Source: Gemmatimonadetes bacterium bin94 (lineage in GTDB: Bacteria > Gemmatimonadota > Gemmatimonadetes > Longimicrobiales > Gaopeijiaceae). From it: a stretch of 36,221 nt of DNA. The translations under genes and the position numbers were made by a program. The stretch lies in assembly GCA_002238865.1 (NCBI GenBank), contig MPNE01000037.1:1-36221 (forward strand), read 5' to 3'. The notes under the pieces were generated by a model. The model saw nothing but the letters and a program-made list of their open reading frames with translations. It was not told where the DNA came from and did no database searches. Shown in pieces: positions 15,463 through 19,984 of this stretch. How positions within the stretch are numbered: the stretch's first letter is position 1; every line of letters begins with the position of its first letter.

Positions 15463-16671
15463 CTACCGGCTTCTTCCGGCCTTCCCTTCCATGGCCTCGA
15501 AAAACGCCCGGTGATTCGCCAGGATCCGCCCGGTTTCCTCCGGGTCGGGCTCCAGCGTGTCGACGCCCCGCTCGAAGGTGCCTCCCAGCAGAATCCCGTC
15601 CGTCCGGGGGAACATGTACTGGCTGCCCCCCGTCGAGAATCGCCCGCCGCCGATGCTCAGATAGTCGACGGCGGCCTGAGGCCTCAGCACGACCAGCTGT
15701 CCCTTGATCGGGGTCAGCGCGTCGTCGCCGAAGAGCGCCTTCGCACCCAGTCCCGTACAGTTCACGATGATGGGCTCGGGTAGCGCCGCCAACTGACGGC
15801 GGTCGGCGACTTCGCCCACGACGACCCTCCCTCCGGCGATGCGGAAGTCTCGCATGAGAGCCCGGAGGTAGCGCGGTGGCTCGATGAACATGGTCGCGAC
15901 CCGGCGGGCGTGGCGGGTGGGGAACGGGTGCTCGTCGCCTTCGAGCTCCTGCCATTCGGGGTAGAGATCCCGGATCCGCGAGGCGTATCCCCGGCCGGAC
16001 TGGCGCCGCTCGCCGACGAAGTAGTTGTCGATCCAGCGGACCCCGTAGTCGGGGCCGACCAGGTTCTGGAAGTGGCGGTAGGCGAGGCGGGCGGCGCGCT
16101 CGAACTGATCCCCGAAGGGACCGTCCAGGTTGTCCGACACGGTCGACGGCGACCATTGGGCGCCGGCCATGTTCGAGGTGGTGTTCGACGGGAGGTCACG
16201 GGTACGGATGGTCACGGTGCGGCCGCGCCGCTGCAGCAGCCGGGCCGTCGCGAGTCCGACGGCACCTGCTCCGAGCACGGCCACATCGCCCTCGCTCCCG
16301 CTGTCGGTCACAAGCTCCGCCGCCATGTCGGCCGTGCCCCAGGAGAGGGTCACGCCGCCACCGCCATGGCCGTAGTTGTGGACGAGCAGCTTCGACCCGA
16401 AGCGCTCGGCCCGCACCACGAATCCGTCGGCGCGGTAGGGCCGCAGGCCGGCAACCTCGCGTATGACGCGGTCGCGTGACACCCTCACCGGCCTGACGGG
16501 CGCGCGTGGCGCAGCGGCGAGCCAGGGCTTCCCGCGCGGCGATGCACAGGCGGCCGCCCAACCGGCGACCAGGGCTCCGCCCGCGAGTCTCAGCCAGCGA
16601 CGCCGGTCCACCGCCGGCGAGAGGCGGCCGAGGACGTCCGTGGGCGGCCGGTGGTTGCCCGGAACCCTCAC
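15463..16671 (-). CDS. Tat-exported DAO-family FAD-dependent oxidoreductase, probable lipoprotein
   Basis: A 402-residue flavoprotein of the D-amino-acid oxidase (DAO) family. The dinucleotide-binding motif is VAVLGAGAVGLATARLL at about residue 130. The C-terminal DAO part includes IVNCTGLGAKALFGDDAL, TPIKGQLVVLRPQ and FPRTDGILLGGTFE. The N terminus has a twin-arginine-like signal (DRRRWLRLAGGALVAGWAAAC) whose Cys could be lipidated, so the enzyme probably folds with FAD in the cytosol and is exported. The GTG start at 16671 is chosen because it lies just after the osmC stop and leaves the Tat motif near the N terminus; a longer ATG start at 16746 would run into osmC. Family members oxidise the amine carbon of D-amino acids or related amines and release hydrogen peroxide. 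Substrate unknown; partners in the operon are an OsmC protein and a small peptide. Confidence 0.82.
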   Translation of the reverse strand: MRVPGNHRPPTDVLGRLSPAVDRRRWLRLAGGALVAGWAAACASPRGKPWLAAAPRAPVRPVRVSRDRVIREVAGLRPYRADGFVVRAERFGSKLLVHNYGHGGGGVTLSWGTADMAAELVTDSGSEGDVAVLGAGAVGLATARLLQRRGRTVTIRTRDLPSNTTSNMAGAQWSPSTVSDNLDGPFGDQFERAARLAYRHFQNLVGPDYGVRWIDNYFVGERRQSGRGYASRIRDLYPEWQELEGDEHPFPTRHARRVATMFIEPPRYLRALMRDFRIAGGRVVVGEVADRRQLAALPEPIIVNCTGLGAKALFGDDALTPIKGQLVVLRPQAAVDYLSIGGGRFSTGGSQYMFPRTDGILLGGTFERGVDTLEPDPEETGRILANHRAFFEAMEGKAGRSR

Positions 16672-16682
16672 CGCGCCAGCCG

Positions 16683-17141
16683 CTAGACGATCACCAGCTC
16701 CGTCGTGATGTCGATGCATTTGTGCAGCGTCCGGTAGACCGGACAACGCATGGGGTGGAGAGACAGCGCCCGTTGAAGGGTCGCCTCGTCCGCGCCCGCG
16801 GCCTTCAGCAGGTACTTCACATGAATGGTGCGTATGACGAGGACGCCGTCATCCTTTCCGACCCCGCCGCTGACCTCCGCGGTGAGGTTGCCGTCCGACG
16901 CTCCGATCCCGCGTGCCTCCAGCACGCCTCCGAAGGTGCCGACCAGTCAGCCGCCGGTAGCGGCGATCACATAGTCGAGGGTCGTGGTGGTCTCGTTTTG
17001 GGGGTGGACTCCATAGTGCTCGGCGATCGCGCCGTGAACGCCGAACTCCACCGGACCATCGTGAGCCGGCAGGTACGCCAGCCGATGCGGGCCGCGGGTG
17101 CGTTCGATCCGGACGTTGCCTTCGTAAACGATGTTGCTCAT
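16683..17141 (-). CDS. OsmC-family protein with in-frame TGA at the catalytic Cys (probable selenoprotein)
   Basis: Read from ATG at 17141 to TAG at 16683, this gives a 152-residue OsmC/Ohr-family protein if the TGA at 16947-16949 (codon 65) is decoded. Upstream of it lies TTTTLDYVIAATGG and directly after LVGTFGGVLEARGI, the same frame and the same family. In OsmC proteins this position, at the start of the central helix after AAxxx, carries the peroxidatic Cys. The second family cysteine is present as Cys133 in HPMRCPVYRTL. TGA at the exact place of the redox Cys points to selenocysteine. Sec-containing OsmC-like proteins are known from selenoprotein surveys. Family members reduce organic hydroperoxides. 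A candidate SECIS hairpin lies at 16920-16941. The gene follows the membrane protein at 17198 and precedes the flavoprotein, which may produce peroxide. Alternatives are a nonsense mutation or a sequencing error. Confidence 0.82.
16920..16941 (-). promoter_or_regulatory. Candidate bacterial SECIS hairpin downstream of the osmC TGA
   Basis: Starting six bases after the TGA, the mRNA can fold as CGGCAC paired with GUGCUG (one G-U pair). One bulged C follows, then CUU pairs with AGG (one more G-U pair) around a CGG loop with G residues at the tip. Bacterial SECIS elements are stem-loops directly downstream of UGA with a G near the start of the apical loop, usually about 16-37 bases away. Here the loop begins 15 bases after TGA, at the short end. 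Hand folding only; the same bases also encode conserved residues. Confidence 0.4.
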
Positions 17142-17197: not shown

Positions 17198-17758
17198 TCA
17201 GGCAGGCCACAGCCAGCCGAAGACGCTCGCCGTCAGTAGCGCGTAGACGAGACCGTCGAGCGCGTGCTTGAAGGCGACCGACCCGGGCAGGCCGAACCAG
17301 ATGCTCTCCTGGAAGCCGATGAAGCCGTGGGCCATGAACGCCGCCAGGCCGGTGATCCGGAAAACGGCGAGGAAGCCCGCACCGGCGCCCAGGGAGATGG
17401 AGGCGACGAAGGCGACGAAGACGCCGACCACGAGGTAGAGCACGAGTGACTTGGCCATCGCCGTACGCATGTCGAGTACCGATTCGCCGTCTCGCACGCG
17501 CAGAATGCCCACCGGACCCTGGCGGACCCTCTCCCTGTACTCGGCGGAGTCTTCCTCCGCTCCGTCCGCCCACGGGAACACGTACATGCCGGGGCCGGCG
17601 CCGCAGCTGCGGATGGCGTCCAGGAAGGTGCCCTCGTCCTCGACCCGGGCGAAGTCCTTCTTGTGATGCGGCATGACCATCCAGACCATGGCGCTCACCA
17701 CGAAGACCACAACGCCGGACAGGACGATCGGCAGCCACAGGGCGGCGATCGGTATCAT
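17198..17758 (-). CDS. Conserved inner-membrane protein of unknown function
   Basis: A 186-residue protein with one hydrophobic helix at the N terminus (LPIVLSGVVVFVVSAMVWMV), a soluble stretch (about 27-90) beginning MPHHKKDFARVEDEG and including SCGAGPGMYVFPW, and three further helices from about residue 95 onwards (SLVLYLVVGVFVAFVASISL onward). The start is fixed by AAGGAG a few bases before ATG. The PHHKxDF / PGxYxFP arrangement is one I associate with uncharacterised small membrane proteins of Gram-negative bacteria; no function is known to me. It is the first gene of the - strand group with the OsmC protein (56-base gap), flavoprotein and peptide, so it may take part in the same redox or stress task. 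This is inference. Divergent from the LolA-like operon at 17895. Confidence 0.75.
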   Translation of the reverse strand: MIPIAALWLPIVLSGVVVFVVSAMVWMVMPHHKKDFARVEDEGTFLDAIRSCGAGPGMYVFPWADGAEEDSAEYRERVRQGPVGILRVRDGESVLDMRTAMAKSLVLYLVVGVFVAFVASISLGAGAGFLAVFRITGLAAFMAHGFIGFQESIWFGLPGSVAFKHALDGLVYALLTASVFGWLWPA

Positions 17759-17768
17759 TGGTGCTCCT

Positions 17769-17894: not shown

Positions 17895-18695
17895 ATGGAG
17901 ACGATGTCCAGCCGGGTGTCGAGAGGGCGAGGCCGGAGACTGACGGCGGTGGTGCTGGCGGGGCTGGGTCTGGCCGCCATCGGGCCGGAAGCGGCCGGCG
18001 CTCAGACGGACCCGATGGTCCTGCAGATCATCGACGAGGCCGACCGCCTCATGCGGGGCGAATCGAGCACGGGCAGGCTGCGGATGGAGATCGACACCGA
18101 GAACTGGTCGCGCTCTCTGGAGATGAGCGTCTGGTCGCTCGGCACGGACTACTCGCTGATCCGCGTGGAGAGTCCCCGTCGCGAGGCCGGCACCGCGACC
18201 CTCAAGGTCGAAAACGAAGTCTGGAACTACCTGCCCCGCGCCGACCGGACCATCAAGATTCCTCCTTCGATGATGCTCGGTTCCTGGATGGGCTCCCACG
18301 TCACCAACGACGATCTGGTAAAGGAGAGCCGCCTCGTCGAGGACTACGACATCGTCATCTCCTTCGAGGGCGACCGGGACGGCGAGGACGTGTGGGAGTT
18401 CACGCTGACCCCCAAGCCCGAGGCGCCGGTGATCTGGGGCCGGATCGAGCAGGCGATCCGCAAGCGGGACCGCATGCCGCTCTGGGCGCGCTACTACGAC
18501 GAGGATGGCACCCTGGCCCGGACGATGTCCTTTGCGGACTTTCAGGTGCTCGGAGGCCGGACGGTCCCGACGCGAATGGTCATCGAGCCCGGCGACGGCG
18601 AAGAGCGCACCGTGGTCACCTACCTGGAACTCGACTTCGACGTGGGCCTCGACGAGGACTTCTTCAGCTTGCGGAATATGCGGGCTCGTCAATGA
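17895..18695 (+). CDS. LolA-like outer-membrane lipoprotein-sorting protein
   Basis: A 266-residue secreted protein with a signal peptide (RRLTAVVLAGLGLAAIGPEAAGA, cleaved before QTDP). The mature part follows the LolA/LolB-like fold seen in proteins annotated as outer membrane lipoprotein-sorting protein: an initial helix (IIDEADRLMRGESSTGRLRM), strands containing YSLIRVESPRREAGTATL, the motif VWNYLPRADRTIKIPPSMM, then SWMGSHVTNDDLVKESRLVEDY and a C-terminal FFSLRNMRARQ. Such proteins carry a lipid or lipid anchor in a hydrophobic cavity across the periplasm. It is the first gene of an operon with two permeases, an ATPase and an outer-membrane barrel, which fits a periplasmic shuttle. The ATG at 17895 follows GAGGTGG and gives a proper signal peptide. 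The cargo is unknown; it need not be a lipoprotein. Confidence 0.85.
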   Translation: METMSSRVSRGRGRRLTAVVLAGLGLAAIGPEAAGAQTDPMVLQIIDEADRLMRGESSTGRLRMEIDTENWSRSLEMSVWSLGTDYSLIRVESPRREAGTATLKVENEVWNYLPRADRTIKIPPSMMLGSWMGSHVTNDDLVKESRLVEDYDIVISFEGDRDGEDVWEFTLTPKPEAPVIWGRIEQAIRKRDRMPLWARYYDEDGTLARTMSFADFQVLGGRTVPTRMVIEPGDGEERTVVTYLELDFDVGLDEDFFSLRNMRARQ

Positions 18696-18721
18696 GTCCA
18701 CGTTGAGGGGCGATTGACCTG

Positions 18722-19984
18722 ATGAACCGCGTCGGCAACGTGATGTGGTGGCGGATGGCGTGGCGGAACCTGTGGCGAAACCGTCGCCGCACCTTGCTGA
18801 CGGCTTCCGCGCTCTCCTTCGGATTCGTGGCGTCGGTTGTCATGATCGCCTTCATGGACGGGATGATGGAGGAGCTCATCTCGAACGGGACCCGCGTGGT
18901 GACGGGTCAGGTGCAGATTCACGCGCCGGACTACCGGCCCGAGCGGAACATCCACGACACGATGGGGGGCCGCGAAGGGGTCGATGTGGGTGCACTCGTC
19001 GCGGCGGTGGAGGGACAGGCCGGGGTTGCCGGAGCGGCACCGCGACTGTACGGCGGGGGGCTGGTGAGCTCCGGGGACGAGACGGTGGGGGCCGTGCTGA
19101 TGGGGATGGTGGCGTCGCGGGAAGAAGCAGTCAGCCGATTCGGGCATGCCATGGTCGCGGGGCGGATGCCGGGGCCGGGCGAGATCGTGGTGGGCGACGC
19201 AATGGCTGAAACGGTGGCGGTCGACGTAGGCGACGAGGTGGTCCTGGTGGCTCCCGCGGCGGACGGCTCGATCGGCAACGATCTCTTCACCGTGTCGGGA
19301 ATCTTCCACGTCGGCGTCGGGGGTTTCGACGACAGCTACGCCTTGCTGGACATGGGGTCGCTCCACGAGCTGATGGCGATGAGCGCCGGCCGCATCCACG
19401 AGGTGGCGGTATCGGTGGAGCGCATCCGGGACGCGGACGCCGTGGCGGCGCGGGTGGCCGAGGCCGTGGAAGAAATTTCGCCGGGCCTGCTCACGGAGTC
19501 ATGGTCGGTCTTGCAGCCGCAGCTCCACTACGTGACGAGCATGGCCCGCGCGATGAACGGCATCGTCGCGCTAATGATCTTCGGGATGGCGATCTTCGGG
19601 GTCGCCAACACCATGCTCCTCGCAACCTTCGAGCGCCGCAGGGAGTTTGCGGTCGCGCGGGCGCTCGGGACATCGGGCGGTGCGGTGGGCAGGATCGTCG
19701 TCTACGAAGGCCTCCTCCTCGGCCTGGTCTCCCTCGGGGCGGGAGGCCTCGTCGCGGGACCGATCCTCGTCTACCTTCACGGCAACCCCATCGACCTCAG
19801 TTCCTTCGTCGGGACCTACTCCTTCGTGGGTTCGGCGGTCCGCCCCCTGCTCACGGTCGCGTTTTCCTGGCAGGGACCCCTGGCCAGCGCCGTCGCGCTG
19901 GTTGGCACCGGAGTCGTCTCCGCTCTGATCCCTGCGTGGCGTGCCGTCCGCGTCCCGCCCGCCGACTCATTGGCGGCCCGCTGA
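18722..19984 (+). CDS. FtsX/LolE-type ABC transporter permease 1
   Basis: A 420-residue permease with the MacB/LolCE/FtsX layout. It has an N-terminal helix after a basic start (MAWRNLWRNRRRTLLTASALSFGF), a large periplasmic domain of about 220 residues, then three helices from about residue 275 (MNGIVALMIFGMAIFGVANTMLL), with the coupling segment ATFERRREFAVARALGTSGGAVGRIVVYEG and the end PAWRAVRVPPADSLAAR. It would use ATP hydrolysis by the ATPase at 21243 to extract or move a substrate on the periplasmic side of the inner membrane. It lies 26 bases after the LolA-like gene, and its TGA overlaps the ATG of permease 2 by one base (TGATG). Confidence 0.9.
   Translation: MNRVGNVMWWRMAWRNLWRNRRRTLLTASALSFGFVASVVMIAFMDGMMEELISNGTRVVTGQVQIHAPDYRPERNIHDTMGGREGVDVGALVAAVEGQAGVAGAAPRLYGGGLVSSGDETVGAVLMGMVASREEAVSRFGHAMVAGRMPGPGEIVVGDAMAETVAVDVGDEVVLVAPAADGSIGNDLFTVSGIFHVGVGGFDDSYALLDMGSLHELMAMSAGRIHEVAVSVERIRDADAVAARVAEAVEEISPGLLTESWSVLQPQLHYVTSMARAMNGIVALMIFGMAIFGVANTMLLATFERRREFAVARALGTSGGAVGRIVVYEGLLLGLVSLGAGGLVAGPILVYLHGNPIDLSSFVGTYSFVGSAVRPLLTVAFSWQGPLASAVALVGTGVVSALIPAWRAVRVPPADSLAAR

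Follow-up and report, generated by a model that had tools for sequence, protein, structure and literature searches.

Selenocysteine-containing proteins of the OsmC type were reported in 2005 from a survey of the Sargasso Sea, where they were assigned to COG1765/PF02566 and described by the redox motif UxxT (PMC1088965), and an OsmC-like selenoprotein has been listed in later works (PMC9312934, PMC13188914). The only curated model for a selenocysteine form of OsmC that we found is NF041052 (OsmC_like_Se) of NCBIfam. In Ohr enzymes the peroxidatic cysteine (Cp), an arginine and a glutamate are catalytic, and lipoylated proteins have been named as the reductant (PMC5962072). Within the open-access papers we found no mention of NF041052 or of an OsmC selenoprotein from Gemmatimonadota. 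An earlier note on the DNA described here, which correctly stated that such proteins are known from selenoprotein surveys, proposed a further case in Gemmatimonadetes bacterium bin94. Here we ask how this locus compares with the described systems.

The window, that is, the whole stretch of 36,221 nucleotides that was analysed (contig MPNE01000037.1), carries on its minus strand a gene for an OsmC-like selenoprotein (16683..17141), recognized by its open reading frame, its Pfam match and its orthologues. When the TGA is read through, translation from the ATG at 17141-17139 to the TAG at 16685-16683 gives 152 amino acids with a single TGA, codon 65, at 16947..16949 (minus strand); the plus-strand frame across 16683-17141 gave a meaningless translation and was discarded. 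The Pfam OsmC domain (PF02566) matches residues 49-148 with 54.3 bits, above the gathering cut-off of 27.5 bits that defines the superfamily, and runs across the TGA, so that both sides belong to one family in one frame. Profile alignment to solved OsmC proteins places codon 65 in the peroxidatic cysteine column, which is Cys in OsmC at large, and Cys133 (codon 16743..16745, minus strand, within MRCPVYRTL), invariant across the aligned members, in the resolving cysteine column. The gene thus has an in-frame UGA opposite the redox cysteine of its homologues, the arrangement by which selenoproteins are recognized, within the motif U65-L-V-G-T (UxxGT). The earlier note, which did not state the strand, had read the locus in the same way as to the codon, the single family on both sides, the replaced peroxidatic cysteine and the intact resolving one, and translation and alignment bear it out on each of these points.

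The genome to which the window belongs (4.42 Mb, 97.5% complete, a draft in 83 contigs) encodes the full set of genes expected for bacterial selenoproteins: selA (487.9 bits), selB (306.6 bits), selC, the tRNA-Sec with a UCA anticodon (79.7 bits), and selD (388.4 bits). The selD gene (L020, C34:18385-19308) itself carries one in-frame TGA, and the selenophosphate synthetase is therefore probably a selenoprotein too; an in-frame TGA is common for SelD. Among other genomes, only RF01852 matches above 60 bits were counted as tRNA-Sec, since the matches at 46-53 bits that we examined turned out to be genes for tRNA-Ser or for tRNA-Leu. By this measure tRNA-Sec was found within the order in 15 of 17 genomes carrying the OsmC gene and in 4 of 19 non-carriers (Fisher p = 7e-5, in a test that treats genomes as independent and is inflated by their relatedness). 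The two carriers without it are genomes 81-82% complete, and one family of 12 genomes has neither a gene of this subfamily nor tRNA-Sec. All six carriers tested from several phyla, including Chloroflexota and Desulfobacterales, have tRNA-Sec, four of them having been checked with ARAGORN.

Downstream of the UGA there is a hairpin, GCGUGC-UGGAG-GCACGC (16911..16927, minus strand), whose 6-bp stem starts 19 nt after the UGA and whose apical loop, UGGAG, lies about 25 nt after it; size, loop and spacing all fit the published model of the bSECIS element of bacterial selenoproteins (PMC13188914). Folded in isolation, the hairpin region of the window gave no significant z-score, and for this reason we relied on comparative evidence. 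All six stem pairs are kept at a fixed distance in 56 of 56 distinct sequences from the order, with exchanges between T-A and C-G and between G-C and A-T. Overall, 115 of 129 real sequences have a perfect stem, whereas random redrawing of their synonymous codons produces one in 4.7% of cases. Compensating swaps of Val and Ala codons occur across the stem, GTG being paired with GCA in 21 of 21 sequences of one form and GCA with GTG in 37 of 38 of the other, although only about 8% of the Ala codons elsewhere in the genes of the subfamily are GCA. Furthermore, codon identity among pairs with the same residue peaks over the hairpin, at 0.72 in a six-codon window versus a mean of 0.51. All these counts are inflated by the shared ancestry of the genomes. 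Orthologues from SAR202-type Chloroflexota keep the UGA and differ in the inner pairs (GYGCCC-UUGAG-GCNCGC); their hairpin, predicted with the loop CUUGA, falls outside the canonical bSECIS model (loci L164-L168, L171-L174, L176, L179, L182 and L191).

The same codon is TGA well beyond this gene. A paralogue in the same genome, 34% identical, has a TGA at the corresponding codon; it lies (L002, contig C52) downstream of a gene resembling a PLP-dependent ammonia-lyase, as far as its reading frame can be judged by eye. All full-length close homologues in 59 related genomes of the order fall into two paralogue groups and have exactly one TGA each. A search of 395 genomes from the phylum gave one TGA in each of the strong matches listed, and a few genomes gave weak matches only, with far lower scores. 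Named genomes were scanned with two peptide patterns, one with Cys at the column, so that cysteine forms were sought as well; the best 80 of 256 confirmed matches all have TGA and none has Cys. These 80 include Gemmatimonadota, Chloroflexota, Acidobacteriota, Actinomycetota, Thermodesulfobacteriota, Myxococcota and Tectomicrobia, and also a bin labelled Gammaproteobacteria, a kind of label that can be wrong. The column, Cys in the wider family, is thus TGA in every close relative found. Given the shared codon in the paralogue, in all full-length close homologues of the order and in the best 80 of the 256 matches, the TGA is far beyond chance; the earlier note had argued from its position that a random nonsense mutation would be unlikely to hit that codon.

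With the encoded selA, selB, tRNA-Sec(UCA) and selD and the conserved bSECIS after codon 65, we infer that the ribosome would insert selenocysteine at this UGA rather than stop. We put the probability of selenocysteine insertion into this OsmC/Ohr-superfamily protein at about 0.96 from the sequence data, and the machinery, the conserved TGA and the bSECIS all favour this proposal of the earlier note. An in-frame TGA usually points to a pseudogene, and the assembly is a draft, so that a nonsense mutation or a sequencing error in a decayed osmC might be suspected; however, independent assemblies of all close relatives within the order, and of members of several phyla, share the TGA, and it is found in both paralogue groups with the remaining frame intact in each, which makes decay or error vanishingly improbable. 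Any mechanism of readthrough would yield the same open frame, and the TGA could in principle be read as a standard amino acid through a changed genetic code or a suppressor tRNA. Against this, the adjoining gene for a membrane protein stops at an ordinary TGA up to which its homologues align, the genome has a tRNA-Sec with a UCA anticodon together with the rest of selABCD, the wider family has Cys at the column, and the hairpin 3' of the codon is constrained and of bSECIS form. We regard such decoding as highly improbable, if slightly less so than decay, and retain selenocysteine as the reading of codon 65.

Granted a selenoprotein, it might simply be a member of the catalogued OsmC-like kind (UxxT, NF041052), with which it shares the superfamily, selenocysteine within a redox motif at the same structural position, and a UGA followed by a predicted bSECIS. 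The published Sargasso Sea proteins are probably of the NF041052 type, judging by their shared motif. Such membership is unlikely, since the window protein has UxxGT instead of UxxT and gave no match to NF041052 at E<0.01, its paralogue, at 32.2 bits, stays far below the cut-off of 95, and none of 200 Gemmatimonadota genomes (0/200) passes that cut-off. Furthermore, two carrier genomes contain true NF041052 proteins, L242 (AFULLTQ) and L243 (AFUVLTQ), both UxxT and both separate from the UxxGT protein of the same genome, and BLASTP gave no significant alignment of L242 with the window protein. From this failure of the curated model, the presence of both types in the same genomes and the dissimilarity of L242, the window protein apparently represents a separate subfamily of selenocysteine OsmC proteins, with the motif UxxGT, two paralogue groups and only selenocysteine in the sequences sampled. 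This UxxGT subfamily lies within a known kind of selenoprotein and itself appears to be uncatalogued.

What the protein does has to be judged from its fold and residues. The structure predicted with AlphaFold2 has a mean pLDDT of 95.4, and the best PDB matches of the model are OsmC/Ohr proteins (Z about 11-15), which places it in that fold. Escherichia coli OsmC (1nye/1qwi) and Xylella fastidiosa Ohr (1zb9) share the fold (VIA-align Z about 12.6-13.3), the residue at the peroxidatic position in a central helix, here Sec65 within the long helix 54-76 of the model, and the resolving cysteine in a C-P motif. They differ from the window protein in having Cys instead of Sec, with about 15% identity, and in the catalytic Glu column, ten residues before Cp, which is not exactly conserved here and is adjoined, one residue on, by an invariant Asp56, so that the activity may differ. 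Four residues do not vary across the sets sampled, Sec65, Cys133, Arg20 and Asp56; judged by position, Arg20 would stand in the pair of N-terminal strands that corresponds to the loop of the catalytic Arg19 in Ohr (PMC5962072). In the proposed chemistry, Sec65 would attack hydroperoxides, which are probably organic or lipid ones, and become a selenenic acid. Cys133 would then resolve this by forming a selenenylsulfide, from which a dithiol reductant, putatively lipoylated proteins or a thioredoxin-type protein, would restore Sec65.

Because the exact Glu column is not kept, peroxidase action can only be inferred, from fold and residues; we hold such a step to be reasonably probable for the window protein. 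A selenoprotein of the OsmC fold with another function, such as a selenol-based reductase, a thiol-disulfide exchanger or a redox sensor, is possible but less probable. The altered Glu column would suit it, as would the neighbouring genes, which vary outside close relatives and of which none points to peroxide metabolism, and FTN_1133 is reported to be an OsmC-fold protein without thiol peroxidase activity (PMC4069020). The invariant Sec at the peroxidatic position and Cys at the resolving one, together with the invariant Arg20 placed by position at the site of the Ohr Arg19 loop, argue against it and for the peroxidase step. Whichever reaction is catalysed, we lean slightly towards the view that the UxxGT proteins form a second, ancient OsmC selenoprotein subfamily, spread over at least six phyla and outside the curated models, that would occur in selenocysteine form only and be absent where the selenocysteine machinery is absent, so that its chemistry may need selenium. 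A widespread subfamily with selenocysteine only would be well suited to finding out what selenium can do and sulfur cannot. Through its association with tRNA-Sec it can mark selenocysteine use in Gemmatimonadota and Chloroflexota and, since the curated model does not cover them, UxxGT proteins may easily be taken for pseudogenes or for truncated genes in annotation.

In a tree, the 33 sampled members lie on one side of a branch (support 94/96) and nine cysteine OsmC proteins and a third selenocysteine group on the other, in an analysis with long branches and unsettled bootstrap; this is consistent with a single origin of selenocysteine in the UxxGT subfamily. That third, separate group, found in eight Gemmatimonadota genomes of family f4 (L223-L230), has its TGA in a GAU[TM]SMTIALYARRK-like motif, scores under the NF041052 cut-off and lies near cysteine OsmC proteins such as L208; it is apparently an independent exchange of Cys and Sec. 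At five loci (L083-L087, on contigs of G016, G007, G019 and G004) assemblies break inside or beside the UGA/SECIS stretch of a gene of the window type, perhaps because this gene is nearly identical between co-occurring species.

The OsmC gene is flanked on the same strand by a small membrane protein upstream (17198..17761, minus strand, with an ordinary TGA stop at 17200-17198) and by an ORF for an FAD-dependent oxidoreductase (DAO) downstream (15463..16746, minus strand), whose true start is probably at a lower coordinate, as its 5' part overlaps osmC. The earlier note had suggested that osmC, the membrane protein and a possibly peroxide-generating flavoprotein form a peroxide-handling unit. 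In tblastn searches the membrane protein is linked to osmC in most of the genus, with synteny only among close relatives, and the flavoprotein in many members, most but not all; outside the genus, the only cases of linkage came from two nearby genera within its family, at L130 (both genes) and L139 (the membrane protein alone). We therefore rejected such a functional unit beyond close relatives, and the same searches gave no support for a conserved peroxide-generating partner. General clustering of neighbourhoods revealed no neighbour shared across phyla; the noise in this analysis is considerable, as many spurious frames arise when ORFs are called by simple means in DNA of high GC content. 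There was no plasmid match. Divergent from osmC, at 17895-19984, the window holds a gene for a LolA-like lipoprotein-sorting protein followed by one for a MacB/FtsX-type permease; in most of the genus, osmC and the LolA-like gene are found linked.
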